Positions 2,761-14,931 of a DNA stretch of 64,000 bases are shown piece by piece. Every line of letters starts with the position of its first letter. Position 1 is the first letter of the stretch. The stretch comes from Streptomyces sp. NBC_00536 (GTDB lineage: Bacteria; Actinomycetota; Actinomycetes; Streptomycetales; Streptomycetaceae), in contig NZ_CP107819.1 in NCBI RefSeq assembly GCF_036346295.1, forward strand, positions 7,440,001 to 7,504,000. Direction: 5' to 3'. Made by a program: the position numbers and the translations under genes. The notes below the pieces were generated by a model. It had not been told where the DNA came from. It saw nothing but the letters and a program-made list of their open reading frames with translations, and ran no database searches.

Positions 2761-2848
2761 GACCGGATCCTCATCTCCTGTCGTGAGCCGTGACATCACC
2801 GTTGCCTACCCGTCGTGGTCGGGCCGTGAATCGTGCGGTTCGCATCAA

Positions 2849-2900
2849 GATCGCGCAAACCGGTGTCGGATCGCGCAAGGAATTGCGTTGCCGCTTGCGC
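2849..2900. promoter_or_regulatory. Candidate operator: repeated GATCGCGCAA in divergent promoter region
   Basis: Between egtA and the macro-domain gene, GATCGCGCAA occurs at 2849-2858 and again at 2869-2878. That is exactly 20 bases apart, two helical turns, so both would face the same side of the DNA. An inverted TTGCGC follows at 2895-2900. The arrangement suggests a dimeric regulator site covering both divergent promoters. No regulator gene is adjacent, so the binder is unknown. Confidence 0.35.
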
Positions 2901-2923
2901 TCCCCGTTCCGGAGAATCGGGGG

Positions 2924-3736
2924 ATGAGCAGTAGATTGCGGGCCATCGCGCTCGAAAACGCGCAGATCGTGACGGCCGGGGGATATCGGTCGAGGTCGGG
3001 ACGGGAGGTTCCGCTCGCCGCCGCCGTGGCGGAGGCCAAGGCAGGAACCAGGATATATGGCCCCAATCCACTCATTCCAGGCGAACCGGAGGGCACGGGG
3101 AGCCGGGCGACCGTGTTCGAGGTGACCGGCGAGAGCAGCACCGTCGCCGCCCGCAGGCTCGCCGCCGACGGCCCGGTCGCGGTCCTCAGCTTCGCCTCGG
3201 CCCGCAATCCCGGGGGCGGTTACGTCCGCGGGGCCAAGGCCCAGGAGGAAGCCCTGTGCCGCGCCTCCGCCCTCTACGAGACCCTGCTGGAGGCGCGCGA
3301 GTACTACGAGGTCCACCGCGCCGAGCGGAGCACCTTCTACACCGACCGGGTGATTCACTCGCCCGGTGTCCCCGTCTTCCGCGACGACCGCGGTGACCTC
3401 CTGGAGGAACCCTTCCGCGCGGGCTTCCTGACCTCCCCGGCGCCCAACGCGGGCACGATCCGGCGCCAGGAACCCGAGCGGGCCCGCGAGATCCCGGCGG
3501 CGCTGGCCCGGCGGGCGGAGCGGGTCCTGGAGGTGGCGGCCCTGCACGACTACCCGCGCCTGGTGCTGGGGGCGTGGGGGTGCGGGGTGTTCATGAACGA
3601 CCCGGCCGAGGTCGCCGAGGCCTTCCGGGCCCTGCTGACGGGCCGCTTCGCGGGGGTCTTCGACCGGGTGGCGTTCGGAATCCTGGACCGCGCCCCCGGC
3701 CCCCGCCGCGCCTTCGAGGCGGCCTTCCCGGGCTGA
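2924..3736 (+). CDS. TIGR02452 family protein (macro-domain / PARG-like)
   Basis: This 270-residue protein matches the TIGR02452 family of microbial PARG-like macro-domain proteins, which are thought to bind or remove ADP-ribose. Visible hallmarks are VAVLSFASARNPGGGY near residue 90, QEEALCRASALYETL near 110, and VLGAWGCGVFMNDP near 215, the second ADP-ribose-binding loop. The open frame extends far upstream, but ATG 2924 is chosen because it follows GGAGAATCGGGGG and begins the conserved domain at the right distance. It is divergent from egtA. Substrate and partner are not evident from the neighbourhood. ADP-ribosyl hydrolase activity is a family inference only. Confidence 0.88.
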   Translation: MSSRLRAIALENAQIVTAGGYRSRSGREVPLAAAVAEAKAGTRIYGPNPLIPGEPEGTGSRATVFEVTGESSTVAARRLAADGPVAVLSFASARNPGGGYVRGAKAQEEALCRASALYETLLEAREYYEVHRAERSTFYTDRVIHSPGVPVFRDDRGDLLEEPFRAGFLTSPAPNAGTIRRQEPERAREIPAALARRAERVLEVAALHDYPRLVLGAWGCGVFMNDPAEVAEAFRALLTGRFAGVFDRVAFGILDRAPGPRRAFEAAFPG

Positions 3737-3760: not shown

Positions 3761-4225
3761 CTAACTCCAGCCGTACCGCTCGCGCAGGCGGTCCACGACC
3801 AGCTGGAAGCGGCCCCGGTCCAGGGCGCAGGCCTCGCGCCGCATGCCGTCCTCGTGCACCCGCAGCACCCGGTCCACGTCCACCCAGGACTCCCGCCCGG
3901 CACCGTCCCAGGGGCCGGTGCCGATCGGGACCCACTCGCGGTCGTGGTCGTGCCGCTTGCTGGAGAGCTGGACCGCGAGCACGGTGCCGCGCCCGGTCTC
4001 GCGGGCCACGACCAGGACGGGGCGGTCCTTGCCCCGCCCGTCGTTCTCCTCGAACGGAACGAAGGTCCACACGATCTCGCCGGGATCCGGGTCCCCGTCG
4101 TGGTCCGGGGCGTACGAGGTGCGGACGGGCCCGATGGCGTGCGGATCGACCTCGGCGGTGGCGCCGGAGCCGTCGCGGCCTGGTTGCTCGACGTGACCGT
4201 TGCTGTGGTGTGAAAGTGCCGTCAT
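3761..4225 (-). CDS. PemK/MazF-like protein (putative type II toxin family)
   Basis: The 154-residue product has a PemK/MazF-like core after a roughly 45-residue N-terminal extension. The core has DPGEIVWTFVPFEENDGRGKDRPVLVVA, written here in shorter pieces as GEIVWTFVPF and KDRPVLVVA, then VQLSSKRHDHD and WVDVDRVLRVHE. Family members are mRNA endoribonucleases. No antitoxin-like small gene lies next to it. Its ATG overlaps the TGA of the upstream HTH regulator by four bases, so the two are translated together. Similar solitary copies are, as I recall, common in Streptomyces chromosomes, so a housekeeping or regulatory role is as likely as a true toxin. Confidence 0.8.
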   Translation of the reverse strand: MTALSHHSNGHVEQPGRDGSGATAEVDPHAIGPVRTSYAPDHDGDPDPGEIVWTFVPFEENDGRGKDRPVLVVARETGRGTVLAVQLSSKRHDHDREWVPIGTGPWDGAGRESWVDVDRVLRVHEDGMRREACALDRGRFQLVVDRLRERYGWS

Positions 4226-5418
4226 TCGGGTGAGGTTAGCGGTGCGGGACCGGTGGGCGCGGGATTTCGCGCGGCCGTCCCGTCGGTGGGGGGCGTCTGC
4301 GCGGCGGCCGCGGAGAGGTGCAGGCCGTGGGCGTGGATGAGGACACCGGCCTGGGTGCGGCTACGGGCCCCGAGCTGGTCCATGAGTTCGGAGATGTGGC
4401 GGCGGCAGGTGCGCAGGGACAGGCCCAGGCGGCGGGCGATGACCTCGTCCTTGATGCCGTCGGCGAGCAGGACGGCGACCGTGCGTTTGATCTCCTCGGT
4501 CACGGTACGGGCCGCGGCCGGGCCGCTGAGGTAGGGGGTCGCCCGGTTCCAGGACTGCTGGAAGGCGTCGTAGAGGAAGGCGACGGCGGAGGGCTGGCGG
4601 ATGACCACGGCTCCGCGGGGGCGCGCGTGGTCGGGGATGAACGCGACCCGCCGGTCCACGATGATCATCTGGCCGAAGAGCTCGTCGAGGGTGCGGATCT
4701 GCGATCCGGCCGCCGCGGCGGTGCGGACATAGTCCTGGGTGGGCTGGTGGAAGCGGGCCGGGTGCTGGTAGATGCACCGGATCTCGATGCCGCGGTCGAG
4801 CATGGCCAGGTCGCGGGGCAGCGCGTCGGCGAGGATCTCGGCGGGCCGGCCGCCGCCGGGCTGGAAGGAGACGACGTCCGTGCGGCAGTCGGCGACGCAG
4901 GAACTGATGGCGTTGCGGGCGGCGTGCACGTCGGGCAGGAGTTCCAGCACCTCCGCGGACGACGGTCCGTCGTGGGCGCGGGGGAGCGGGAGTGCCTCAA
5001 GGGTGGCGCGCAGTGCGGCGGCCTGCTCCTGATGGATCTTCAACTGCACGTGCGCCGCGCGTAGTTCTTCCTCCCGAGGGCCGAGGAGGGTGGCGATGGC
5101 GTGGTGGGGGCTGACCGGTTCCCAGGCGTCCCCTTCGGGGGCGGGGCGCAAGAGCTGCCACGCCTGGAGTGCGGCCAGGTGCTCGTGGTGGGCGTCGGTG
5201 CGTAATCCGGTGGATTCCGCCGGTGATCCGGTCAACTCTCCTTGTTCCAAGGCCTGGTGGTAGAGCGTCACGGCGTCCCGGGAGAGCGGGGGAAGGCCCG
5301 CGGTTTCGGCCAGCCCGGAATTTTGGGGTGTTTTGTCTCCCTGGCCAGAAAGGGCCTGCAGCTTGTGGGCGGGTTCGTGGGGGGTGCCCAGACTGGCGTT
5401 TTCTCTGTCTATGTCCAC
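4222..5418 (-). CDS. LuxR-type HTH transcriptional regulator with TrmB-like domain
   Basis: This 398-residue regulator has three parts: an N-terminal winged-helix-like segment (about 45-125), a central TrmB/phospholipase-D-like domain (about 165-290, with DVVSFQPGG, RCIYQHPARF, FGQMIIVDRRVAFIP) and a C-terminal LuxR-type HTH (about 320-365, ADGIKDEVIARRLGLSLRTC). There is no phospho-acceptor receiver domain, so it probably senses a ligand or protein. Proteins of this build are abundant in Streptomyces and often sit beside biosynthetic clusters. The start is GTG at 5418, with GGGAAGG upstream. It is divergent from the 67-residue secreted peptide and lies at the edge of the lanthipeptide locus, making it the best candidate for pathway control. 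Confidence 0.82.
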   Translation of the reverse strand: MDIDRENASLGTPHEPAHKLQALSGQGDKTPQNSGLAETAGLPPLSRDAVTLYHQALEQGELTGSPAESTGLRTDAHHEHLAALQAWQLLRPAPEGDAWEPVSPHHAIATLLGPREEELRAAHVQLKIHQEQAAALRATLEALPLPRAHDGPSSAEVLELLPDVHAARNAISSCVADCRTDVVSFQPGGGRPAEILADALPRDLAMLDRGIEIRCIYQHPARFHQPTQDYVRTAAAAGSQIRTLDELFGQMIIVDRRVAFIPDHARPRGAVVIRQPSAVAFLYDAFQQSWNRATPYLSGPAAARTVTEEIKRTVAVLLADGIKDEVIARRLGLSLRTCRRHISELMDQLGARSRTQAGVLIHAHGLHLSAAAAQTPPTDGTAARNPAPTGPAPLTSPE

Positions 5419-5561: not shown

Positions 5562-5765
5562 ATGCGAAACATCTTCCGAATGGCAGCTGTCGCGGCAAGC
5601 GCGACGTTCGTCCTCGGTGCGGCCGGTGTCTCCCACGCGGCGCCGCTGGCCGGAAATGACCTGCTCGCCGGTGGTACCAGCGCCGGAATCCAGTCAGACG
5701 AGACCGGCTGGGGCGAGATCTCCTGCCAGTCGGTGCCGCGCCCGGCCTCCTGCCCGCAGATCTAG
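5562..5765 (+). CDS. Small secreted peptide with Cys pair, unknown function
   Basis: I do not recognise the family. The 67-residue product begins with a clear Sec signal: positive MRNIFR, a hydrophobic AAVAASATFVLGAAG stretch, and a likely cut after VSHA. The mature part would be about 41 residues (APLAGNDLL to the end) with two cysteines eight residues apart near the C-terminus (SCQSVPRPASC). GGGGA sits seven bases before ATG. It is divergent from the LuxR/TrmB-like regulator, with a shared 143-base promoter region, and precedes the lanthipeptide genes on the same strand. It has neither the ILxLQN leader nor an SxxS motif, so it is not another lanthipeptide precursor. A secreted signal or surface peptide is possible. 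Confidence 0.7.
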   Translation: MRNIFRMAAVAASATFVLGAAGVSHAAPLAGNDLLAGGTSAGIQSDETGWGEISCQSVPRPASCPQI

Positions 5766-5862
5766 GCCAGCTCCCGGTCCTTCGCGGTCACGCCGCCCCG
5801 GTCCCCTCCGGAATCCGCGCCGCCGCCCACCCCATCCGCCTGAGTCCAGCCCGTCCGAGGAG

Positions 5863-6012
5863 ATGACAGCCGTGCACGCGTTCTCACACTCCGATCACGA
5901 TCCCTTCCACGACCGCTTCTACGACCCCCGGCAGGACGGCGAGGGCGGACCGACGGCCGACGGCGCCCTTCCCTGGCCGCCCACGGGCCCGGAACAGGTC
6001 GTAGTCCTCTGA
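5863..6012 (+). CDS. 49-residue hypothetical ORF upstream of lanKC
   Basis: This is a short ORF, supported mainly by GAGG a few bases before ATG and by its position between the secreted peptide and lanKC on the same strand. The product is His/Asp/Phe-rich at the start (HSDHDPFHDRFYDP) and Pro/Trp-rich near the end (ALPWPPTGPEQVVVL). It has no Cys, signal peptide or known motif. Its stop codon falls in a 26/27-base tandem repeat. It could be a real small peptide of the cluster or a chance ORF in GC-rich DNA. Confidence 0.4.
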   Translation: MTAVHAFSHSDHDPFHDRFYDPRQDGEGGPTADGALPWPPTGPEQVVVL

Positions 6013-6077
6013 CCCCGGTCCGGCTTCAGGACCACTGACCCCGGTCCCGGCTTCAGGACCACTGGCCCCGGCCCAGG
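6010..6077. repeat. 26/27-bp tandem repeat, two copies plus partial
   Basis: Unit 1 (6010-6035) and unit 2 (6036-6062) share TGACCCCGGTC and CGGCTTCAGGACCAC, differing by one inserted C. A degenerate third start, TGGCCCCGG, follows at 6063. The repeat overlaps the stop of the 49-residue ORF and lies about 300 bases before lanKC. Confidence 0.8.
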
Positions 6078-6372
6078 ACATCCGGCCCGCGCCCCTTCGG
6101 CGGCGCCCGCCCACCAGACTTCCCCCGAGGCCCTCTCCTCCCGCCCCGGGGTGATCCCGCCCGGCCCGCTCCCGGCGAGCCCCGCAGCGGCCCCGCCGCA
6201 CTCCCCGCGCCCCGCGCCCCGCACCCGCCACCCGGCGGTGACCGCCCCGCGGTGACCATCCCGCGCCCGCGCTCCCCTTCTTCCTTCCCGCCCGGCCCCT
6301 GCGCGCCGCGTTCCCGACGGCAGGCGGTCCCGTCCCGCCGCCGTGCCCGGCCGCGTCCTCCTGGAGAACCCC
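6078..6372. other. Intergenic leader before lanKC
   Basis: About 295 bases of very C-rich DNA with no convincing ORF on either strand. It ends in the lanKC ribosome binding site (GGAG at 6363-6366). I see no clear hairpin terminator. It may be a long untranslated leader or contain the lanKC promoter. Confidence 0.4.
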
Positions 6373-9063
6373 GTGGAAAGAATCAACCACCTCGCCTACT
6401 GCCGTGCGGACCAGCGGTTCTACGAGAACTCCGACACCGCACGCACCGGCGCACCGTTCCCCGCCACCGAGCGCCCCGCCCCGGACGGCTGGCGCCGCAG
6501 CGAGACCAGCAGCTGGCTGTACGTGCACCCCGAGCACGTACAACTCCCCGCGCAGGGATGGAAGATCCACGTCTCGGCCACGGCGGCGGACGCCGCCGAG
6601 GTCATCGACACGGTGTGGGAGTACTGCGTACCCCGCTCGCTGTCCTTCAAGTTCCTGCCGCACCCACAGGTGCACCAGGCGATGAACAGCAAATACGCAC
6701 CCCGCGGCGGCAGCGGCAAGCTCCTGACCCTCTACCCCGCGGACGACGCCTCGCTGGAACGGACCCTCGACGAGCTGGGCTCCCTGCTGCGGGGACGGCA
6801 AGGTCCGTACATCCTCAGCGACCTGCGGTGGCGGGAAGGGCCGCTCTACCTCCGGTACGGCGGCTTCGCCCGGCGTGAATGCCTCTCCGAAAGCGGTGAG
6901 CGGACCCTCGCCATCGCCCGCCCCGACGGGGTGCTGGTGCCCGACGAGCGCGCCCCCGTCTTCCAAGTGCCCGACTGGGCCCCGGTTCCCGGCTTCATCG
7001 CCGAACAGATCGAGGCCCGCGCCGCGGCCCAGGACGACGACGCGTTCCCGTACACGGTGGAGAAGGCGCTGCACTACTCCAACGGCGGCGGCATCTACCT
7101 GGCCACGGACAACGACACCGGCCGCAAGGTCGTGCTGCGCGAAGCCCGGCCGCTGGCGGGCCTGGACGGTTCCGGCGACGACGCCGTCACCCGGCTGCAC
7201 CGGGAGGCCGACACCCTGCGCCGGCTGGCCCACCTGGACTCCGTACCGGACATACTGGGCACCTTCACCGCCTGGGAACACCACTTCCTGGTACAGGAGT
7301 TCATCGAGGGGCAGACCCTCCAGCGGTACATGTCCACCACCAACCCGACGATCAAACCGGGTTCGGGGCCGAGCGAACGCCAAGCGTACGCCGACACCGT
7401 CCTGGACGTCCTCGGCCAGCTCGAACGGGTCCTGGAAGCGGTCCACGCCACCGGCACCGTCTTCGGCGACCTCAGCCCCAACAACGTCATGGTGCGTCCG
7501 GACGGCCGGGTCGCCCTGGTCGACTTCGAGATCGCGCACCGGCCCGGCACCGACGACCCCGATCCCAGCATCGGCACGCCCGGCTACATCGCCAAGCACG
7601 CCACGGGCTTCGACCGCGACCGCTACGCCCTCGACTGCCTGCGTCTCGGCCTCTTCCTGCCGCTGACCATGACGCTGGACCTCGACCCGGACCGCGCTGG
7701 TCAACTGGCCGAGGCCACAGGGGAGTTGTTCTCCCTGCCCACGGAGGTGGTCGAGCGGATCACCACCGGCCTGACGCCACCGGGACACACGGCGCGCACC
7801 GACCGGACCGTGGCCGACCTGTTCGCCGCCACCGCCGCCGCACCGGTCTCCGCCCCCGCCCGTGAGCTGGAACGCGCCCTCGTCGCGGCCATCCGGGCCA
7901 GCGCCACCCCGGACCGTCAGGACCGTCTCTTCCCCGGGGACCCCGCGGCCCTGCACGACGGCGGCTACACCATGGCCCACGGCGCGGCCGGCGTCCTGTA
8001 CGCACTGGCCGTCACCGGCCACGCCACGGACCCGGAACACCACGAGTGGCTGTGGCAGGCCACCCACCGCGCCTCCGAACCCAGGCCCGGCCTGTACGAC
8101 GGCCTGCACGGCGCCGCACACACCCTGCACCTGGTCGGCCGCACCGCACAGGCGCTGGAGGTGCTGGACCGCGCCATCGACCTCACCACCGACCTCACCC
8201 CCGTGGGCCTGCACGACGGACTGGCGGGCATCGGCCTGAACCTGCGGCACTTCGCGCACGCCCTGGACGAACCCGGCCTGCACGCCCACGTGTTGCAGAC
8301 CGCCGAACGCCTCGTGACGCGGCTGGCCGGCGTCACCCGGGCCCCCGCCGCCCGCGCCGGACTCCTGCGCGGCTGGAGTGGCCCCGCCCTGTTCTTCCTG
8401 AGCCTGTACGAGGACACCGGCGACACCGGCTTCCTCGACCTGGCGAGGGAATGCCTCCAACTCGACCTGGACCACTGCCAGCAGATCGACTCGGTGCTCA
8501 ACCTCAATGACGGCACGCGCCTGTTGCCGTACCTGGGAGCGGGCAGCGCGGGCATCGCCGTGGCCCTCGCGGCCTACCTGCAGCACCGTCCCGACGGCGA
8601 ACTCGCCGTCACCCTGGACTCGTTGCACGAGGCCACGGACCTGAACTTCACCATCCAGAGCGGACTCTTCGCGGGCCGGGCCGGACTGGCCGCCGCCATC
8701 GCCCACAACCGGGTGATCGAAACCAGCCCCCACCTGGAGGCCGGTTTCAAGGGGCACATCCGCGACCTGTCCTGGCACGCCATGGCCCACGCCGACGGCA
8801 TCGCCACCACCGGTGACCAGAACATGCGGCTGTCCATGGACCTGGCCACCGGCACCGCGGGCATCCTCCACACCCTGCACACCGTCGCGGGCCGGCTGCC
8901 CGCCCTGCCCCTCCTCGACCGCCCCGGCGTCCCCGCCCGCCCGGAGCAGGACCGGAGCGCGCCGCGGCCGCTCGCCCTGCACTCGGCCGCCGTGGGCGAG
9001 CCGGCGAGTACCGGTGACCCGAACAGCGTCTGGGCCTGCGACGGCACCGAAGCCACTCCCTGA
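6373..9063 (+). CDS. lanKC: Class III lanthipeptide synthetase LanKC
   Basis: LanKC installs lanthionine or labionin rings. A kinase domain phosphorylates Ser/Thr, a lyase region eliminates phosphate, and a cyclase-like domain closes rings with Cys. The 896-residue protein has an N-terminal lyase-type region (about 1-220). The kinase (about 225-480) carries VVLREARPLAG, VFGDLSPNN (Asp366, Asn371), DFE (384-386) and GTPGYIA. The LanC-like C-terminal half (about 520-880) carries MAHGAAGVLYAL, GLYDGLHGA, GLHDGLAGIG and GTAGILHTL. The LanC zinc-binding Cys-Cys-His set is absent, as is usual for class III. The position usually held by the catalytic kinase lysine is Arg256. GTG 6373 is preferred over the upstream GTG 6343 because GGAG precedes it. 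Confidence 0.95.
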   Translation: MERINHLAYCRADQRFYENSDTARTGAPFPATERPAPDGWRRSETSSWLYVHPEHVQLPAQGWKIHVSATAADAAEVIDTVWEYCVPRSLSFKFLPHPQVHQAMNSKYAPRGGSGKLLTLYPADDASLERTLDELGSLLRGRQGPYILSDLRWREGPLYLRYGGFARRECLSESGERTLAIARPDGVLVPDERAPVFQVPDWAPVPGFIAEQIEARAAAQDDDAFPYTVEKALHYSNGGGIYLATDNDTGRKVVLREARPLAGLDGSGDDAVTRLHREADTLRRLAHLDSVPDILGTFTAWEHHFLVQEFIEGQTLQRYMSTTNPTIKPGSGPSERQAYADTVLDVLGQLERVLEAVHATGTVFGDLSPNNVMVRPDGRVALVDFEIAHRPGTDDPDPSIGTPGYIAKHATGFDRDRYALDCLRLGLFLPLTMTLDLDPDRAGQLAEATGELFSLPTEVVERITTGLTPPGHTARTDRTVADLFAATAAAPVSAPARELERALVAAIRASATPDRQDRLFPGDPAALHDGGYTMAHGAAGVLYALAVTGHATDPEHHEWLWQATHRASEPRPGLYDGLHGAAHTLHLVGRTAQALEVLDRAIDLTTDLTPVGLHDGLAGIGLNLRHFAHALDEPGLHAHVLQTAERLVTRLAGVTRAPAARAGLLRGWSGPALFFLSLYEDTGDTGFLDLARECLQLDLDHCQQIDSVLNLNDGTRLLPYLGAGSAGIAVALAAYLQHRPDGELAVTLDSLHEATDLNFTIQSGLFAGRAGLAAAIAHNRVIETSPHLEAGFKGHIRDLSWHAMAHADGIATTGDQNMRLSMDLATGTAGILHTLHTVAGRLPALPLLDRPGVPARPEQDRSAPRPLALHSAAVGEPASTGDPNSVWACDGTEATP

Positions 9064-9094
9064 CCCACCTCACCCCTCCTCAAGGAGAAAGACC

Positions 9095-9241
9095 ATGAAC
9101 GCGATCCTCGCCCTCCAGAACCTGCGGAACACCGACGGGACAGTCGGCTCGGACGGCCCGAAGGACGGCGAACTCAACAGCTCCTACAGCGTCTTCGGCT
9201 GCACCAACGGTGGCGGTGGCGGCACCGCCACCGAAGCCTGA
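9095..9241 (+). CDS. Class III lanthipeptide precursor 1 (LanA-like)
   Basis: A 48-residue precursor that starts MNAILALQNL, the class III ILxLQ leader motif bound by LanKC. An acidic spacer (DGPKDGEL) precedes the core NSSYSVFGCTN, which has a Ser-x2-Ser-x3-Cys labionin-type motif. It has an unusual Gly-rich tail (five Gly, then TATEA). AAGGAG sits upstream of ATG. It is the first of ten precursors, 31 bases after lanKC. Confidence 0.93.
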   Translation: MNAILALQNLRNTDGTVGSDGPKDGELNSSYSVFGCTNGGGGGTATEA

Positions 9242-9301
9242 GCCCGCACCGCACCGCACTGCCCACTCACTCACCCACCCACCCGAGAAGGAGAACGCCC
9301 C

Positions 9302-9430
9302 GTGAACGCGATCCTCGCCCTGCAGAACGTCACCTCGGAGAACGACCCCGAAGACGGAGCCGAGCTGATGAACAGCGGCTTCTGTCACGGCAGCACCATC
9401 AGCCTGATGTGCGGCGACCGGGACACGTGA
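9302..9430 (+). CDS. Class III lanthipeptide precursor 2 (LanA-like)
   Basis: A 42-residue precursor with GTG start and leader MNAILALQNV. The core region SGFCHGSTISLMC contains Ser-x2-Ser-x2-Cys (STISLMC) plus an additional upstream Ser-x2-Cys (SGFC). It is the only copy with two cysteines, so two rings are possible. The tail is GDRDT. AAGGAG precedes the start. Confidence 0.9.
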   Translation: MNAILALQNVTSENDPEDGAELMNSGFCHGSTISLMCGDRDT

Positions 9431-9484
9431 CCATCGCCTCCGCCCCGCCGCACCCGTAACCCACCACCCACAAGGAGCACCCTC

Positions 9485-9619
9485 GTGAACACGATCCTCG
9501 CCCTCCAGAACATGCCCCCCGAGAACGGCGCCTACGACGCGGACGGCCTCGCCGGCCCCGGCCCGCGCAGCAGCATCAGCTCGTACGCCCACATCTGCGA
9601 GGGCAACACCGACACCTGA
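9485..9619 (+). CDS. Class III lanthipeptide precursor 3 (LanA-like)
   Basis: A 44-residue precursor, GTG start, leader MNTILALQNM. The core is RSSISSYAHICEGN. Four serines precede the Cys, with Ser-x2-Ser possible in two registers and four residues before Cys. This could give a larger ring than in most of its sisters. AAGGAG precedes the start. Confidence 0.9.
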   Translation: MNTILALQNMPPENGAYDADGLAGPGPRSSISSYAHICEGNTDT

Positions 9620-9672
9620 GCCCCACCTCCCACACCCCGCCGGATCTCGACACCACCAAGAAGGAGAAGCCC

Positions 9673-9783
9673 ATGAACAAGATCCTCGAACTGCAGAACC
9701 TCGACGGTCAGGACGGCCCGCAGGAGGACGAGGCCGGCCTCAGCTCGCTCAGCGTGGCCTTCTGCACCGGCACCGACGCGTAG
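9673..9783 (+). CDS. Class III lanthipeptide precursor 4 (LanA-like)
   Basis: A 36-residue precursor, leader MNKILELQNLDG. The core SSLSVAFCTGT (Ser-x2-Ser-x3-Cys) is identical to that of precursor 9, while the spacer differs (QDGPQEDEAGL). Together with precursors 9 and 10 it forms the LQNLDG subgroup. AAGGAGAAG precedes ATG. Confidence 0.92.
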   Translation: MNKILELQNLDGQDGPQEDEAGLSSLSVAFCTGTDA

Positions 9784-9833
9784 TACGTCCTCCCCCTCCG
9801 CACCCAGCACTCCCCGAACGAAGGAGCACGACC

Positions 9834-9962
9834 ATGAACGCGATCCTCGCCCTGCAGAACATGGCCCCGCAGAACGGTCCCGCAGGCGACGGCGACGCCT
9901 TGATCGTCGGCGGCCTCCCCTACAGCACCGCGAGCACGTTCGCGTGCGACCGGGAGGAGTAG
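9834..9962 (+). CDS. Class III lanthipeptide precursor 5 (LanA-like)
   Basis: A 42-residue precursor, leader MNAILALQNMAPQNGPA. The core YSTASTFACDREE has Ser-x2-Ser-x3-Cys with Thr residues that could also be dehydrated. It belongs to the PQNGPA subgroup with precursors 6 and 7. AAGGAG precedes ATG. Confidence 0.92.
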   Translation: MNAILALQNMAPQNGPAGDGDALIVGGLPYSTASTFACDREE

Positions 9963-10028
9963 GTCCCGCTCCGCTGCACGGCCCACTCGCTCCACCCCGC
10001 CCCTCGTACCCCTCGTAAGGAGAACGCC

Positions 10029-10145
10029 ATGAACAAGATCCTTGCCCTGCAGAACATGACCCCGCAGAACGGTCCCGCGGACGTCGCCATCGAGGACCCC
10101 CGTCGCAGCACGGTCAGCGTCGCGCATTGCGCTCCGGAGGAGTAA
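10029..10145 (+). CDS. Class III lanthipeptide precursor 6 (LanA-like)
   Basis: A 38-residue precursor, leader MNKILALQNMTPQNGPAD. The core RRSTVSVAHCAPEE has Ser-x2-Ser-x3-Cys. It is the closest relative of precursor 7 (same leader, same STVS start of the core). AAGGAGAAC precedes ATG. Confidence 0.92.
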   Translation: MNKILALQNMTPQNGPADVAIEDPRRSTVSVAHCAPEE

Positions 10146-10194
10146 GCCGCGACCACCAACTGACGTCCCACTCCACCCCGGGAAGGAGAACTTC

Positions 10195-10317
10195 ATGACC
10201 AAGATCCTCGCCTTGCAGAACATGACCCCGCAGAACGGTCCCGCAGACGACGCAGGCGCCTGGAATCCCGTTCGCAGCACCGTCAGCTACATCCACTGCA
10301 TTCCGGAAGAGGACTAA
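10195..10317 (+). CDS. Class III lanthipeptide precursor 7 (LanA-like)
   Basis: A 40-residue precursor, leader MTKILALQNMTPQNGPAD. It is the only copy with Thr rather than Asn at position 2. The core VRSTVSYIHCIPEED has Ser-x2-Ser-x3-Cys. The upstream spacer (TGACGTCCCACTCCACCCC then AAGGAGAAC) is nearly the same as that before precursor 9, pointing to duplication of gene plus spacer. Confidence 0.92.
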   Translation: MTKILALQNMTPQNGPADDAGAWNPVRSTVSYIHCIPEED

Positions 10318-10358
10318 GTCGCTTCCCCCCACCCGGACCACCACGACGGAGGCCCCCC

Positions 10359-10493
10359 GTGAACAAGATCCTCGCCCTGCAGAACCTCGCCTCGGACAAC
10401 GGTCCCCAGGACGGCGAGACCCACATCACCACCACCGTGCACATAGGCAGCGGCATCAGCCTCGGCCCGCAGTGCACCGCCACCATCAACTGA
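10359..10493 (+). CDS. Class III lanthipeptide precursor 8 (LanA-like)
   Basis: A 44-residue precursor, GTG start, leader MNKILALQNLASDNGP. It has a Thr/His-rich spacer (THITTTVHIG) and the core GSGISLGPQCTATIN, Ser-x2-Ser-x4-Cys, one residue longer than most. ACGGAGG precedes the start. Confidence 0.9.
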   Translation: MNKILALQNLASDNGPQDGETHITTTVHIGSGISLGPQCTATIN

Positions 10494-10524
10494 CGTCCCA
10501 CCCCACCCCGAGAAGGAGAACACC

Positions 10525-10644
10525 ATGAACAACATCCTCGCCCTGCAGAACCTCGACGGCACCCCCGAAGGCCCGCAGGAGGACGGCGAGTACAGCTCGC
10601 TCAGCGTGGCCTTCTGCACCGGCACCGGCAAGGACCCGATGTAG
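10525..10644 (+). CDS. Class III lanthipeptide precursor 9 (LanA-like)
   Basis: A 39-residue precursor, leader MNNILALQNLDGTPEGP. The core SSLSVAFCTGT is the same as in precursor 4 but followed by GKDPM. The leader-spacer matches precursor 10, so this copy looks like a mosaic of those two. AAGGAGAAC precedes ATG. Confidence 0.92.
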   Translation: MNNILALQNLDGTPEGPQEDGEYSSLSVAFCTGTGKDPM

Positions 10645-10705
10645 TCGGGCTCCACCCCCGTCGCACGAACCACCCGCTCCACCCCACCCCGAGAAGGAGA
10701 ACGCC

Positions 10706-10816
10706 ATGAACAAGATCCTCGAACTGCAGAACCTGGACGGCACCCCCGAGGGCCCGCAGGACGACGAGGCCAACAGCTCCTACAGCCTCGCCTACTGCAC
10801 CAACACCAACGTCTGA
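10706..10816 (+). CDS. Class III lanthipeptide precursor 10 (LanA-like)
   Basis: A 36-residue precursor, leader MNKILELQNLDGTPEGP. The core NSSYSLAYCTNTNV (Ser-x2-Ser-x3-Cys) resembles precursor 1 (SSYSVFGC). It is the last of the ten and is followed 35 bases later by a strong hairpin. Confidence 0.92.
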   Translation: MNKILELQNLDGTPEGPQDDEANSSYSLAYCTNTNV

Positions 10817-10851
10817 CAGCGGTGACCGCGTGAAGTGAGCTCCACCCAGGC

Positions 10852-10885
10852 CGGGCGGGGGCGGGCACGTGCCCGCCCCCGCCCG
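10852..10885. terminator. Perfect 17-bp-arm hairpin after the precursor array
   Basis: The arms meet at GGGCAC/GTGCCC and extend for 17 perfectly paired bases of almost pure G and C, with no spacer. There is no T-run, as is common for Streptomyces terminators. It lies between the last precursor and the exporter, so it probably ends or attenuates transcription of the precursor array. Confidence 0.75.
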
Positions 10886-10949
10886 CTGCTCTTCGCGCAC
10901 CCTTCCCGGACCTCCGGACCCCGTACCCCTCACCGAAAGGAGGAATCCT

Positions 10950-12248
10950 GTGTCAGCTCCCGCACCTTCAGCTCCCGTACCCCTGGGGAAGAACCGGAAC
11001 TTCCGGCTGCTCTGGAGCGCGAACGCGTTGTCCACCCTGGGCTCGCAGGCGGGCTTCATCGCCGTGCCCCTGCTGGTCCTCTCGCTCACCGGCTCCGTCA
11101 CCGCCTTCGGGCTGGTCATGTTCATCGAATCGGCCGTCGCGGTGACCGCGGGCATCCCGGCCGGCATCCTCGTCGACCGGCTGGACCGCCGGAAGGTGAT
11201 GCTGGCCTGCGACGTGCTGCGCGCCGCGGTCAGCGCGGTGTTCGTCATCGCCCTCACCACCGGGCACGCGTCGATGCCGCTGATCATCGGGGTCAGTGCC
11301 GTCACCGGGATCCTCAGCAGCCCGTTCGGTCCCGCCGCGGGCGCGGTGCTGCGCACCGTCGTGCCGCCGGAGCAGCTGGTGTCGGCGTACTCGGTCAACC
11401 AGGCGCGCAACTCGGCGATCACCCTGGCCGGTCCGCTGATCGGGGCCGCGCTCTACGGAGTCTGGCCCGTGCTGCCCTTCCTCGTCGACGGGGTCAGCTT
11501 CCTGGCCTCGGCGGCCTGCGTGCTGTTCCTCCGCGCGCCGCGGTCCCCGCGCCCCGAGGCCCCGGCCCGGCGCCCCCGGCTGCGCAGCGACCTCGTCACC
11601 GGTCTGCGCTTCATCCGCACCAGCCCGTTCCTGCGCTACAGCGTGGTCAACGCCGCCATGATGGGCTTCGCCCTGTCCGCCGTGGTGATCACGCTGATCT
11701 CGCTGCACGCCAGGGGCGGCGCCGCCCCCATGAGCACCGGCGTCCTCATCTCGGTGTCCGGCGCGGGCAACCTGCTCGGCGCGGTCCTGGCCCCCCGGCT
11801 GAACCGGCTGTTCAGCCCCCGCCGCCTGGTCCTCGGAGTCTGCTGGAGCACCGCCCTGCTCGTTCCGGCCATGACGCTCAGCGACGCGCTCTGGTGGACC
11901 CTGGCGTTGATCGGCGTATCCAGCATCGCCACCCCCGCGGCCAACATCGCACTGTCCGCGGCGGTCACCCACACCGTGCCCGACCACCTGCAAGGCCGCG
12001 TCCAGACCACCTGCGCGCTCCTGCCCGCGCTCATCGGCCCGCTGGGCCCGCTGGCCGCAGGGCTGCTGACGGACCGTGCCTCCGCCTCGCTCAGCCTGCT
12101 GGTGTTCGGCTTCCTGCTCGTCGCCCTCGCGTTCTTCAGCACCTTCGGCCGCGGCCTGCACCACATCCCCGACCTGCGCCGCCGGCCCGAGGCCCGTCCC
12201 GAGAGCCCGGTCCCCGTGGCGCGTACGCCGAAGCCGGTCCGGTCGTGA
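10950..12248 (+). CDS. MFS transporter, probable lanthipeptide exporter
   Basis: This 432-residue major facilitator has about 12 membrane segments in two halves. The first starts at NFRLLWSANALSTLGSQAGF, and the loop between segments 2 and 3 has ILVDRLDRRKVMLACD. The closest recognisable family is the MFS_3/enterobactin-exporter-like group. GTG 10950 is chosen because AAAGGAGG lies six bases upstream. The upstream in-frame extension has no such site and overlaps the hairpin. Its stop overlaps the GTG of the first M16 peptidase, tying it to the lanthipeptide genes. Class III clusters usually carry ABC exporters, so an MFS exporter is notable. Substrate assignment is inferred from context. Confidence 0.87.
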   Translation: MSAPAPSAPVPLGKNRNFRLLWSANALSTLGSQAGFIAVPLLVLSLTGSVTAFGLVMFIESAVAVTAGIPAGILVDRLDRRKVMLACDVLRAAVSAVFVIALTTGHASMPLIIGVSAVTGILSSPFGPAAGAVLRTVVPPEQLVSAYSVNQARNSAITLAGPLIGAALYGVWPVLPFLVDGVSFLASAACVLFLRAPRSPRPEAPARRPRLRSDLVTGLRFIRTSPFLRYSVVNAAMMGFALSAVVITLISLHARGGAAPMSTGVLISVSGAGNLLGAVLAPRLNRLFSPRRLVLGVCWSTALLVPAMTLSDALWWTLALIGVSSIATPAANIALSAAVTHTVPDHLQGRVQTTCALLPALIGPLGPLAAGLLTDRASASLSLLVFGFLLVALAFFSTFGRGLHHIPDLRRRPEARPESPVPVARTPKPVRS

Positions 12249-13558
12249 CCGCGCCCACCGCCGAGTCCCCGGCCACCTGCCAGGAGTACCACCTCGCCAA
12301 CGGGCTGCACGTGGTCCTCGCCGAGGACCATCTCAGCCCCGTCGCCGCCGTGTGCGTCTGGTACCACGTCGGCTCCCGCGACGAGCGGCCCGGCCGGACC
12401 GGACTGGCCCACCTCTTCGAGCACTTGATGTTCCAGGGCTCCGCCCAGGTCCCCGGCAACGGCCACTTCGAAGCGGTCCAGGCCGGTGGCGGCACCGCAA
12501 ACGGCACCACCAGCTTCGAACGCACCAACTACTTCGAGACCGTGCCCGTCCAGCAGCTCGAACTCACCCTGTGGCTGGAGGCCGACCGGATGGGCGGCCT
12601 CCTGGAGTCCCTCACCCAACAGGCCCTGGACAACCAGCGCGACGTGGTCAAGAACGAACGGCGCCAGCGCTACGACAACGTCCCCTACGGCACCGTCTGG
12701 GAACGCCTGATGGCCATGCTCCACCCGGCCGGGCACCCCTACCACCACATGCCGATCGGCTCGATGACCGACCTCGACGCGGCCACGATGGACGACGCCC
12801 GCACCTTCTTCCGCACCCACTACGCCCCCTCCAACGCCGTCCTGGCAGTGGTCGGCGCCATCGACCCGCAGCAGACCCGCGCCTGGATCGACCGGTACTT
12901 CGGCTCCCTCCCCGGTGAGCCCGCCGCCAGGCCCCCCGTCCCGAGCCCCCTGCCCGCACACACCCGTACCGAACAGCGCGCCGTGGTGCGCGAGCCGGTT
13001 CCCGCCGACGCGCTGATGTGCGCCTACCGGATGCCCCCCGACGGTACGCGCGAGGCGGACGCGGCCGACCTCGCCCTGTCCGTACTCGGCGCGGGCGAGT
13101 CCAGCAGGCTCGCCACCCGGCTGACCCGCGACGACCAGATCGCGATGAACGTCTCCATGGGCCTGATGCGGTTCGCCCACGCGCCCTCGCTCGGCTGGCT
13201 CGACATCAAGGCCGCCGGAGGCGCGGACATCCGCGCCCTGGAGCGCACCCTCGACGAGGAACTCGCCCGCTTCGCCGCCGAAGGTCCCACCCCGGCCGAA
13301 CTCGACCGCGCCCGCGCCCACCTGGAGCGCCGGCACCTGGACGCCACCTCCACCGTCGGCGGACGGGCGGACCTGCTGTGCCGCCACGCCACCTTCTTCG
13401 GCTCCGCCCGGACCGCGGACCGGGCCCTCGCAGCCCTGCACGACATCACCGCCGCGGAGGTCAGGGCCGTCGGCGCGGCCCACCTCCAGCGCGACAACCG
13501 GTCCCTCCTGGTCTACGAACGCCCCGCCACCCCGCCCGGAAGGACAGCGCCCCGATGA
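12245..13558 (+). CDS. M16 zinc metallopeptidase, catalytic subunit
   Basis: M16 peptidases cleave short peptides inside a two-part chamber. This 437-residue protein has the inverted zinc motif HLFEH at residues 56-60 and a third ligand, Glu138, in KNERRQRYDN, so it should be active. Its C-terminal half is the usual inactive M16 domain. It starts GTG at 12245, overlapping the exporter stop, and its own stop overlaps the ATG of the second M16 gene. No signal peptide is visible, so cleavage would be cytoplasmic or at the membrane. Paired M16B peptidases have been linked to class III leader removal in Firmicutes. By position these are the likely leader peptidases here. Confidence 0.92.
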   Translation: MTAPTAESPATCQEYHLANGLHVVLAEDHLSPVAAVCVWYHVGSRDERPGRTGLAHLFEHLMFQGSAQVPGNGHFEAVQAGGGTANGTTSFERTNYFETVPVQQLELTLWLEADRMGGLLESLTQQALDNQRDVVKNERRQRYDNVPYGTVWERLMAMLHPAGHPYHHMPIGSMTDLDAATMDDARTFFRTHYAPSNAVLAVVGAIDPQQTRAWIDRYFGSLPGEPAARPPVPSPLPAHTRTEQRAVVREPVPADALMCAYRMPPDGTREADAADLALSVLGAGESSRLATRLTRDDQIAMNVSMGLMRFAHAPSLGWLDIKAAGGADIRALERTLDEELARFAAEGPTPAELDRARAHLERRHLDATSTVGGRADLLCRHATFFGSARTADRALAALHDITAAEVRAVGAAHLQRDNRSLLVYERPATPPGRTAPR

Positions 13559-14931
13559 CCCGCCCCGCCACGCTCCCGCCGCCGCGGCCCACGCGCACCC
13601 TCCACCCCCGGCCCGTCCCGTCGGCCGCCCCGCCGTGGGAGCCGCCCCCGGCGCGGACCGACACCCTGGGCAACGGCCTGCGCGTGGTGCACCTGCACCG
13701 GCCCGGCCAGCGGGTGATCGCCCTCGAACTCCTCCTCGACGCACCCAGGGAAGCCGAACCGCGCGAGCTGGAGGGCATCGCCACCCTGACCGCGCGCGCC
13801 CTGGGCCACGGGCCCCGCGCCCGCGACACCCGCGACTTCACCACCGCCATCGAGACTTGTGGCGCGACCCTGCAGGCCCAGGCCACCCCGGACGGGATCC
13901 GGCTCGCCGTCCAAGTCCCCGTCTCCGGCCTCGACCGGCTCCTGGACCTGCTCACCGAGACCCTCCGCAGCCCCGCCTTCACGCCCCACGACGTGGCCCG
14001 GCTGGTCCGCCAGCGGCTCGACGAGATCGCCCACGAACAGGCCAGTCCCCCACGGCTCGCCGCCCTCACCCTCCACACACGGCTCTACGACGACGGGCAG
14101 CGCGCCGCGCGCCCCGCGAAGGGCAGCGCCGAGACCGTGGTGCGCATCGACAGCGCGGCCGTCCGGGCGTTCCACGACACCCACGCCCGGCCCGCGACCG
14201 CGACCGCCGTCCTGGTCGGCGACTTCACCGGCGTCGCGCTGCCCCGGCTCCTCGAATCCACCCTGGGCCGCTGGGTACGCCCCGCCGCGGCCCCCAGCCG
14301 GCCGCCGGCCCCGGTCCTGGCGGCGTCCCCGGGCACCGTACTGGTCCACCGGCCCGGCGCGGTCCAGACGCACCTCCTGATCGGCCGGGCCGGACCGGGC
14401 CGGCACTCGCTCCGCTGGCCCGCCCAGGCCATCGCCCTCCAGTGCCTCGGCGGTCCGCTCACCTCGCGGCTCGACCGGACCCTGCGCGAGGAGAAGGGCT
14501 ACACCTACGGGATCAGCGCCTTCGCGGCCCCCGTGCGCACCGGCGCGCACGTCTCGGTCACCGGCTCGGTCGAGACCCGGGTCACCGCCGACGCGGTCGC
14601 CGAGATCATGGCGGCGATCGGGTCCGCCGCCCCCGGACTCACCGCGTCCGAACACCACACGGCCCTGCGCACCCTCAAGGGGATCACCCCCATGCAGTAC
14701 TTGACGTCCGCGGCCACGGCGCGGGTGCTGGCCGACGTCGAGGCGGAACGGCTGCCCGCCGCCTACCTGTCCACGCTCCACCGGCGGCTCGACGCCGTCA
14801 CCACCGACGAGGCGACCCGGGAACTGCGCGCCGCCCTGCCCCTCGACGAGCTGGTCGTCGTCGCGGTGGGGGACGCCGACGCCGTCGAAGCGGGCCTGCG
14901 CGGGCTCGGTCCGCTCACCGTCCTCGGCTGA
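13555..14931 (+). CDS. M16 peptidase-like protein, non-catalytic subunit
   Basis: This is the partner of the preceding peptidase, 458 residues, with a Pro-rich N-terminus (about 1-35). Where HxxEH should be, the sequence reads IATLTARALGHG, so zinc ligands are missing. The C-terminal domain keeps the Arg/Tyr substrate-binding pair of regulatory M16 subunits in LDRTLREEKGYTYGISAF. This is the classic alpha/beta division of labour of mitochondrial and bacterial M16B heterodimers. The ATG overlaps the preceding TGA. It is the last gene of the lanthipeptide strand; the amidase beyond faces it. Confidence 0.9.
   Translation: MTRPATLPPPRPTRTLHPRPVPSAAPPWEPPPARTDTLGNGLRVVHLHRPGQRVIALELLLDAPREAEPRELEGIATLTARALGHGPRARDTRDFTTAIETCGATLQAQATPDGIRLAVQVPVSGLDRLLDLLTETLRSPAFTPHDVARLVRQRLDEIAHEQASPPRLAALTLHTRLYDDGQRAARPAKGSAETVVRIDSAAVRAFHDTHARPATATAVLVGDFTGVALPRLLESTLGRWVRPAAAPSRPPAPVLAASPGTVLVHRPGAVQTHLLIGRAGPGRHSLRWPAQAIALQCLGGPLTSRLDRTLREEKGYTYGISAFAAPVRTGAHVSVTGSVETRVTADAVAEIMAAIGSAAPGLTASEHHTALRTLKGITPMQYLTSAATARVLADVEAERLPAAYLSTLHRRLDAVTTDEATRELRAALPLDELVVVAVGDADAVEAGLRGLGPLTVLG

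Follow-up and report, generated by a model that had tools for sequence, protein, structure and literature searches.

A Streptomyces locus in which one class III lanthionine synthetase probably modifies ten different precursor peptides beside an MFS exporter and an M16 peptidase pair

Does a single class III lanthionine synthetase in this locus serve ten different precursor peptides, and which peptidase would free the products from their leaders? In the window, by which we mean the whole 64-kb stretch of DNA analyzed, the locus comprises one LanKC gene, ten precursor open reading frames (ORFs), an MFS gene, and a pair of M16 genes (Table 1). Profile matches and ORF coordinates bore out the inventory given by the first-pass annotation (LanKC, ten ILxLQN ORFs, MFS, and two M16 genes), as well as the four-base overlaps it described: GTGA joins the MFS gene to M16a, and ATGA joins M16a to M16b. 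We conclude that ten different small peptides are probably made ring-containing by one modifying enzyme. Its parts have all been seen in other bacteria; the way they are put together here looks like a new variation.

Table 1. Positions in the window of the predicted genes and other features of the locus
Feature	Position	Strand	Basis or remark
LuxR-type (GerE helix-turn-helix) regulator	4222..5418	-	Pfam GerE; divergent from cluster
67-aa secreted-looking ORF	5562..5765	+	Cluster membership uncertain
LanKC, class III lanthionine synthetase (lyase, kinase, cyclase-like domains)	6373..9063	+	NF038151, Pfam domains; GTG start
Precursor 1, 48 aa, core SSYSVFGC	9095..9241	+	ORF and motifs
Precursor 2, 42 aa, core STISLMC, additional Cys upstream	9302..9430	+	ORF and motifs
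Precursor 3, 44 aa, core SSISSYAHIC	9485..9619	+	ORF and motifs
Precursor 4, 36 aa, core SSLSVAFC	9673..9783	+	ORF and motifs
Precursor 5, 42 aa, core STASTFAC	9834..9962	+	ORF and motifs
Precursor 6, 38 aa, core STVSVAHC	10029..10145	+	ORF and motifs
Precursor 7, 40 aa, core STVSYIHC	10195..10317	+	ORF and motifs
Precursor 8, 44 aa, core SGISLGPQC	10359..10493	+	ORF and motifs; passes NF038154
Precursor 9, 39 aa, core SSLSVAFC	10525..10644	+	ORF and motifs
Precursor 10, 36 aa, core SSYSLAYC	10706..10816	+	ORF and motifs
Perfect G+C-rich inverted repeat, 17-bp arms	10852..10885	+	Between precursors and exporter
MFS exporter (MFS_1 / MFS_3)	10950..12248	+	Pfam; GTG start
M16a, active-type M16 subunit, HLFEH zinc motif	12245..13558	+	Pfam Peptidase_M16 and M16_C
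M16b, partner subunit without HXXEH, R/Y pair (REEKGYTY)	13555..14931	+	Pfam M16_C, 75.8 bits

The LanKC protein scored 998.1 bits against NCBIfam model NF038151 (cut-off, 575) and 400.6 against the class IV model NF038150, under that model's cut-off of 650. Its Pfam domains follow in the order RamC_N, Pkinase, and LANC_like. Residues D366, N371, and D384 were invariant in all 121 aligned LanKCs (the window's own counted), and the likely position of the VAIK lysine is an arginine here and in 77 of the 121 rows (window counted); we take these positions to be kinase catalytic or motif residues. By model score, domain order, and D366/N371/D384, the protein is a predicted class III synthetase.

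The ten consecutive precursor ORFs, all different, occupy 9095 to 10816 on the forward strand. As the first-pass annotation had stated, each carries an I-L-x-L-Q-N leader and an S-x2-S-x(2-4)-C core (10/10; in precursor 3, a spacing of 5 is also a possible reading), with one Ser-Ser-Cys motif per peptide. Together with a LanKC score far over its cut-off, these motifs uphold the class III assignment. The combination of leader and core motif was found 10 times in the window versus 0 times in 100 order-1 Markov windows. AAGGAG lies directly upstream of nine precursors, and ACGGAGG precedes the other (start at 10359). Across the array, identity was 0.78 in the leader versus 0.36 in the remainder, and a crude pN/pS, taken without a significance test, was 1.25 for the core block versus 0.60 for the leader. 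Precursors 4 and 9 share an identical core. A G-P pair occupies an aligned position in 8 of the 10 peptides and is also present in precursors from elsewhere with no M16 gene nearby (L146, L053, and L058); no QAAD-like cleavage motif common to all ten was found. Only precursor 8 passed a curated model (NCBIfam lanthi_III_a NF038154, 24.7 versus 22). The remaining nine gave weak matches under every curated cut-off (NCBIfam lanthi_III_a/b/c and SapB/AmfS; Pfam RamS), and none of the ten passed SapB/AmfS (best, 21.7 versus 25) or RamS (best, 20.5 versus 24.3). No precursor passed the model considered for the noursin-like (histidinobutyrine) subgroup, NF050143, which matched precursors 4, 7, and 10 weakly at 15.4, 14, and 12.9 versus 40. 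We infer that the ten peptides are dehydrated and cyclized by the cognate LanKC.

With HXXEH in one protein, the R/Y pair in the other, and adjacent genes, M16a and M16b fit the sequence pattern of an M16B heterodimer. The best PDB sequence matches of M16a were 4nnz (a probable zinc protease) and chain C of 3amj (the active subunit); those of M16b were 3gwb, whose REKRGLTY aligns with REEKGYTY, and then chain B of 3amj (the inactive subunit). Relatives of M16a were present in 246/246 genomes of the genus, the closest relatives found for both proteins were actinobacterial, and M16b, together with three further Streptomyces proteins, formed a group next to the housekeeping clade. By sequence, the window pair is best read as a divergent relative of the genus-wide M16 pair. 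The best Streptomyces match of the M16a plasmid search, L072, encodes an M16 pair that shares 64% and 47% identity with that of the window, with no LanKC and no precursor within 25 kb; its M16b falls within the housekeeping clade. Against NCBIfam, M16a passed neither YfmH (46.6 bits versus 250) nor YfmF (23 versus 285), and M16b matched neither family. We take these families to represent B. subtilis YmfF/YmfH, the named PttP homologues, and assume that they cover PttP1/PttP2.

SapB/AmfS lanthipeptides have several Ser/Cys motifs and an ABC exporter, unlike the window, with its one Ser-Ser-Cys motif per peptide and an MFS rather than an ABC gene after the array. Prochlorosins are class II products of a LanM enzyme, with a larger precursor set scattered over the genome. 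They resemble the window in pairing one promiscuous synthetase (ProcM) with many precursors of conserved leader and variable core (in part PMC12328550). One class III cluster is reported to have 13 precursors, all of them identical (Walker et al. 2020), and actinobacterial class III clusters are described as usually lacking a leader peptidase gene (PMC7268733).

The ptt cluster of Paenibacillus thiaminolyticus (paenithopeptins) already combines a LanKC with seven precursors, a transporter, and an M16B pair encoded within the cluster, according to Xue et al. 2022 (PMC8960859). The earlier claim that such a combination was undescribed was therefore too strong, and a LanKC with many precursors and an M16 pair is ruled out as a novelty. 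The same precedent, with the sequence, supports the idea of one synthetase for many substrates. In vitro, one ptt M16B pair cut all seven precursors, and the division of HXXEH and R/Y between subunits was shown to matter in PttP1/PttP2 (PMC8960859); sequence and precedent thus support the proposal that the M16 pair is, by analogy, the probable leader peptidase of the cluster. Both loci have one LanKC, several single-core precursors (S-x2-S-x2-5-C in ptt), a transporter, and an M16B heterodimer. Unlike the window, ptt belongs to the Firmicutes, has seven precursors with one set apart, and includes a methyltransferase; its cleavage motif, Q-A-(A/V)-(D/E), was not seen in the window's ten precursors, and YmfF/YmfH are given as homologues of its M16 pair, whereas the window pair falls below the YfmF/YfmH cut-offs (PMC8960859 for ptt). 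What remains distinctive, judged from sequence, is an array of ten all-different precursors, an actinobacterial setting, and an M16 pair that misses the YfmF/YfmH cut-offs and for which the nearest kin found are actinobacterial. Searches of open-licence literature by exact wording returned no description of LanKC with precursor peptides and an MFS transporter, nor of a class III lanthipeptide with multiple precursors described as combinatorial.

We compared the locus with 47 loci that carry a related LanKC, of which no more than 46 are distinct. The gene set named by the first-pass annotation recurred in part: LanKC, precursors, and MFS were found together in relatives, but M16 genes were found in 0/47 loci within the stretch examined for each. 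Because of this, the link to M16 rests on the window, Streptomyces sp. NPDC092952, and the Firmicutes precedent. An MFS homologue adjoined LanKC in 8/47 loci, and precursor-like ORFs never exceeded six per locus. The LanKC-precursor-MFS arrangement occurred in L109, L141, L142, L144, L145, L147, and L149, all from genomes of the window's family, with LanKC 50 to 53% and the adjacent MFS 36 to 52% identical to the window's; these loci have one to six single-motif precursors and no M16 gene in the examined stretch, whereas the window has ten and the M16 pair. The nearest LanKC relatives among those seen in genomic context, L031 (Streptomyces sp. NRRL S-31), L032 (S. flavotricini), and L033 (Wenjunlia), are 66 to 73% identical and have an MNxILDLQ leader but, unlike the window, a single precursor each (core QSSTIW(F/Y)C) and no MFS or M16 homologue. 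Among the matches listed, the nearest LanKC was P0129 (78% identical), from strain NPDC057499. Five loci from Herbidospora, Nocardiopsis, and Nonomuraea (L040, L045, L054, L055, and L057) resemble the window in having about five divergent precursors behind one LanKC (remainder identity, 0.30 to 0.33 in the three arrays measured); they differ from it in their VLNLQ-type leaders, in many peptides with two or three Ser-Cys motifs, and in the absence of a homologous MFS or M16 gene.

Streptomyces sp. NPDC092952 is probably, by sequence, a second instance of the cluster: an M16b 70% identical to the window's and two related precursors are each listed on a contig of the same length as the other (615,313 bp), and no LanKC of this strain is among the 120 LanKC matches listed. 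Its precursor P0128 passed SapB/AmfS (31 versus 25) and RamS (26.4 versus 24.3); the sister precursor P0127 passed no curated model. These two peptides and weaker family relatives partly ruled out a precursor family unique to one strain. Precursor matches occurred in 17/394 family genomes (the window's own counted), and among the sampled genomes of the genus, family, and relatives, none other than the window's own matched several of the precursors strongly. The pairing of an MFS gene with M16a also appeared at 5 loci (with M16b in 4 of the 5) of a RiPP-like cluster unrelated to this one, which encodes a peptide of ∼50 aa, two 2OG oxygenases, a B12-radical SAM protein, and ThiF. This second system is apparently undescribed. 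No description of ThiF with M16, RiPP, and B12 was found in open-licence literature by exact wording. The recurrence of MFS with M16 suggests that these genes could be used to look for leader peptidases in actinobacteria.

We consider it likely that the locus is a class III cluster in which LanKC modifies ten precursors, M16a/M16b cut the leaders, and the MFS protein exports about ten single-ring peptides. As in its family, LanKC would bind the common ILxLQN leader, phosphorylate and eliminate both core serines, and tie the core cysteine into a single lanthionine or labionin ring. By analogy with PttP1/PttP2, the M16a/M16b heterodimer would cut between leader and core and trim the N terminus, and the MFS protein would presumably carry the products out. 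The outcome would be a family of some ten small peptides, each with a single ring and all made by the same set of enzymes.

That the M16 pair instead serves export, self-protection, or peptide turnover, while M1 peptidases of the AplP type, encoded elsewhere, remove the leaders as they do for other actinobacterial class III peptides, seems unlikely to us. The window's genome does have nine M1-domain matches, the M1 enzyme AplP cuts a series of class III precursors (PMC10885120), and the seven relatives that have precursors with an MFS gene close by must use something else because they show no M16 nearby. Against this, the four-base overlaps tie the M16 genes to the exporter gene, leader removal by an M16B pair is proven for ptt (PMC8960859), and the MFS-M16 pairing recurs in the second RiPP-like cluster. 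We find it similarly improbable that few of the ten precursors matter and that the array reflects gene-dosage duplication with drifting copies rather than a diversity library. Dosage predicts near-identical copies, such as those in the related arrays L109, L142, L144, L145, and L149 (remainder identity, 0.82 to 0.92), and would suit the shared core of precursors 4 and 9; but all ten ORFs are intact, with leader, Ser-Ser-Cys pattern, and ribosome-binding site, and the low remainder identity and the higher, crude core pN/pS count against this reading.

Whether the locus is merely an actinobacterial cluster of the ptt type, with precursor number its sole novelty, is a closer matter, though we doubt it. 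The ptt cluster has the same kinds of parts, and its M16B pair cuts every one of its seven precursors (PMC8960859), but its methyltransferase was not seen in the window, the cut-offs of the YfmF/YfmH models, assumed to cover PttP1/PttP2, were missed, and the closest M16 kin found are actinobacterial, with M16b grouping beside the housekeeping clade. We tentatively entertain a broader possibility, somewhat short of an even chance: that actinobacteria, separately from Paenibacillus, built a peptide-library machine from a LanKC with ten substrates and a transferable MFS-M16a-M16b cassette, in which a genus-wide M16 relative turned broad leader peptidase, a cassette kind that also serves the second RiPP-like system.

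If the ten products are made, the locus would offer a class III synthetase with a natural tolerance for ten quite different cores, along with the peptidase pair and exporter that match it. It would then be useful for libraries of ring-containing peptides and would test how an M16 pair that is widespread comes to serve one specific pathway.

At the upstream edge, the first-pass annotation had placed the cluster start at 5562, which we do not uphold: the cluster membership of ORF 5562-5765 lacks support because it has no Pfam or NCBIfam match and no homologue in the fetched related loci. A second short ORF (5863-6012) likewise had no homologue in those loci. The LuxR-type regulator (GerE, 29 bits versus a cut-off of 23.5) possibly controls the cluster; a 36% homologue lies ∼2.7 kb from LanKC in the six-precursor relative L109. 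The MFS protein matched MFS_1 at 143 bits and MFS_3 at 117 bits. Ahead of its gene, the region from 10810 to 10955, which includes the inverted repeat, folds at -75.1 kcal/mol (z, -3.94; 0/200 shuffles equally stable), and the repeat may act as an attenuator, holding precursor mRNA above MFS/M16 mRNA.

The locus reads as a coherent class III lanthipeptide cluster: one LanKC gene, ten short precursor ORFs, an MFS gene and two M16 genes (M16a and M16b) follow one another on the same strand, with 4-base overlaps joining MFS to M16a and M16a to M16b. The first-pass annotation had described this ten-ORF locus well; the gene content, order, overlaps and motifs are all present in the sequence. The window LanKC scored 998.1 bits against the NCBIfam class III model (cut-off, 575), did not reach the class IV cut-off, and carries RamC_N, kinase and LanC-like Pfam domains. 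Residues D366, N371 and D384 were invariant in all 121 aligned LanKCs (window counted). Residue 256, where the kinase VAIK lysine would probably lie, is Arg in 77 of these proteins, the window's among them, and Lys in 44. Upstream, a LuxR-type regulator gene diverges from the cluster; directly downstream of it lies a gene for a PemK/MazF-like protein, the start of which overlaps the regulator stop by four bases. A further ORF contains a microbial-type PARG catalytic domain.

Features of the class III locus and its upstream flank (window coordinates)
Feature	Coordinates	Strand	Basis
ORF with PARG catalytic domain	2429-3736	+	
PemK/MazF-like protein	3761-4225	-	
LuxR-type regulator	4222-5418	-	
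LanKC	6373-9063	+	NCBIfam class III model, Pfam domains
Ten precursor ORFs	9095-10816	+	Leader and core motifs
Precursor 2	9302-9430	+	
Inverted repeat	10852-10885		
MFS gene	10950-12248	+	ORF
M16a	12245-13558	+	ORF
M16b	13555-14931	+	ORF

All ten precursor ORFs are preceded by a ribosome-binding site and share an M-x-x-I-L-x-L-Q-N leader and an S-x2-S-x(2-4)-C core. This motif pair occurred 10 times in the window versus 0 times in 100 Markov windows, so the array is not a product of chance. Mean identity among the ten was 0.78 in the leader and 0.36 in the remainder, no two peptides being identical. Crude pN/pS came to 0.60 across the leader codons and 1.25 across the core block; these values, from non-independent paralogues and with no significance estimate, serve only as a hint. 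Every precursor matched the class III precursor models weakly, precursor 8 alone exceeding the cut-off (24.7 versus 22), and none of the ten passed the Pfam RamS cut-off. Precursor 2 has an additional Cys (SGFCHG) upstream of the core motif, possibly for a disulfide or a second ring.

The layout was compared with 47 related LanKC loci (at most 46 distinct, L033 and L140 coming from one record) with flanks of up to ~10 kb per side, the downstream flank being short in L042, L056 and L058; L060 and L143, which lack LanKC, and L002-L030, with a flank of only ~1.5 kb, were excluded. By a loose pattern that counts a few spurious ORFs, 30 loci had one precursor-like ORF, 1 had none and 16 had two to six. 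MFS and M16 homologues were identified by blastp searches with the window's proteins as queries, which would overlook very distant ones; within these flanks, a same-strand MFS homologue adjoined LanKC in 8 of the 47 loci, and an M16a or M16b homologue was found in none. Seven of the eight MFS-bearing loci (L109, L141, L142, L144, L145, L147 and L149) belong to genomes of the window's family, with LanKCs 50-53% identical to the window's; near-identical precursor copies (0.82-0.92) were present in the five arrays measured among them. The eighth, L046 from Streptoalloteichus, has a single precursor, and its peptide is similar to the one encoded in the S. noursei locus L053. In Herbidospora, Nocardiopsis and Nonomuraea, arrays of some five divergent precursors are found, with no homologous MFS or M16. 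The closest LanKCs seen in context (66-73% identical) accompany a single precursor and neither MFS nor M16; the closest overall among the matches listed was P0129 of NPDC057499 (78%). Two to three tandem precursors of the form MSILxLQQLEIAE... lie behind a single LanKC in L052 (12664-13091) and L051 (12578-12841), the two of L051 being identical.

A profile built from the ten peptides matched, among 392 genus genomes, the window's own genome and one other weakly. A wider profile, run on apparently nearly the same 392 genomes, matched three others, including one (G387) with six precursors and an MFS. With the widest, matches came from 17 of the 394 genomes of the family, a count that includes the window's; under a stricter limit, the own genome alone matched among 296 relatives. 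These profiles fit the window by construction and recover only peptides much like these ten. The protein collection returned six of the window's own precursors together with P0127 and P0128, two precursors of Streptomyces sp. NPDC092952, and the closest M16b among the matches listed (P0002, 70% identical) is from the same strain. For each of the three, the longest contig is given as 615,313 bp, so they are probably on one shared contig. By these sequence matches, NPDC092952 likely holds a second instance of the cluster; no LanKC of this strain appeared among the 120 matches listed, a clustered listing that hides members.

M16a carries HLFEH and matches the active subunit of 3amj (chain C); in M16b, HLFEH is absent, the R/Y pair is present and the match is to the inactive subunit (chain B). 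Homologues of M16a were found in all 246 genus genomes (window's counted), mostly at ~63-66% identity among the matches listed. The window genome has a second M16a copy (63% identical) with an M16b partner at 47.5%. A quick tree was built from 38 rows, namely four plus 34 of the 119 other listed homologues. In it the window M16b grouped with P0002 (support, 100), and P0003 and P0013 joined them (support, 99), next to the housekeeping clade; this placement is provisional, given the very distant outgroup and the long branches that come together at this point.

Eight other genus genomes had two M16a matches, and further copies were confirmed in all eight. In five of the nine extra-M16a loci fetched (L178-L182), an MFS only 26-29% identical to the window's adjoins M16a; M16b is also present in four, and L180 stops at a contig edge. 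Neither LanKC nor precursor was seen in the remaining four (L176, L177, L183 and L184). Upstream, L178-L182 share a RiPP-like set, compared by eye after crude gene calling: a ~50-aa peptide, a solute-binding-protein-like protein, two 2OG-oxygenase-like proteins, a B12-binding radical SAM protein and ThiF. Neither the peptide nor the solute-binding-like gene was called in L181, whose first oxygenase is short; the peptides called in the other four loci end in RVRS or RVRT. Pfam coverage extended to L178 and one L181 protein, and one of the two 2OG matches fell below its cut-off. An exact-word search of the open-licence literature found no paper on this cluster.

The combination of genes had been put forward as undescribed. 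This was wrong in kind and overstated the novelty, since the literature, here as excerpted, contains precedents. Xue et al. (2022; PMC8960859) describe the bcn and ptt clusters, the latter from Paenibacillus. In ptt, PttKC and seven precursors are accompanied by a transporter, a methyltransferase and the M16B pair PttP1/PttP2, whose members bind one another and, acting first as an endopeptidase and then as an aminopeptidase, cleave PttA1 to PttA7 in vitro. In a class III cluster reported by Walker et al. (2020; PMC7268733), there are 13 precursors, all identical, and in class V, LxmP1/LxmP2 are likewise an M16 pair (PMC8068269). The window cluster is a variant of an already described kind of class III cluster, not a new kind. 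No actinobacterial case of the combination was found in the literature searched; the noursin paper (PMC10206099) and a protease review (PMC10885120) were covered in excerpt. Catenulispora PttP-type homologues did not cleave an AplP-type precursor in the excerpted PMC8960859, so actinobacterial M16B pairs do not act on class III precursors in general. The window pair fell below the NCBIfam family cut-offs for YfmF/YfmH, taken to be the B. subtilis proteins given there as PttP homologues. On a plasmid of Streptomyces sp. NBC_00212 (L073, 4636-10582), class V genes (lxmK, a HopA1-like gene and two LxmA-leader peptides) adjoin an M16 pair and an ABC transporter.

In the proposed working of the cluster, LanKC would modify all ten cores through the common leader, M16a/M16b would remove the leaders, and the MFS would export the products, which may have signalling, surface or antagonistic roles. 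The array and the MFS gene are separated by a stretch containing an inverted repeat with perfect 17-bp arms, and this region folds far more stably than its shuffled versions; the repeat may keep MFS/M16 expression below the precursor level.
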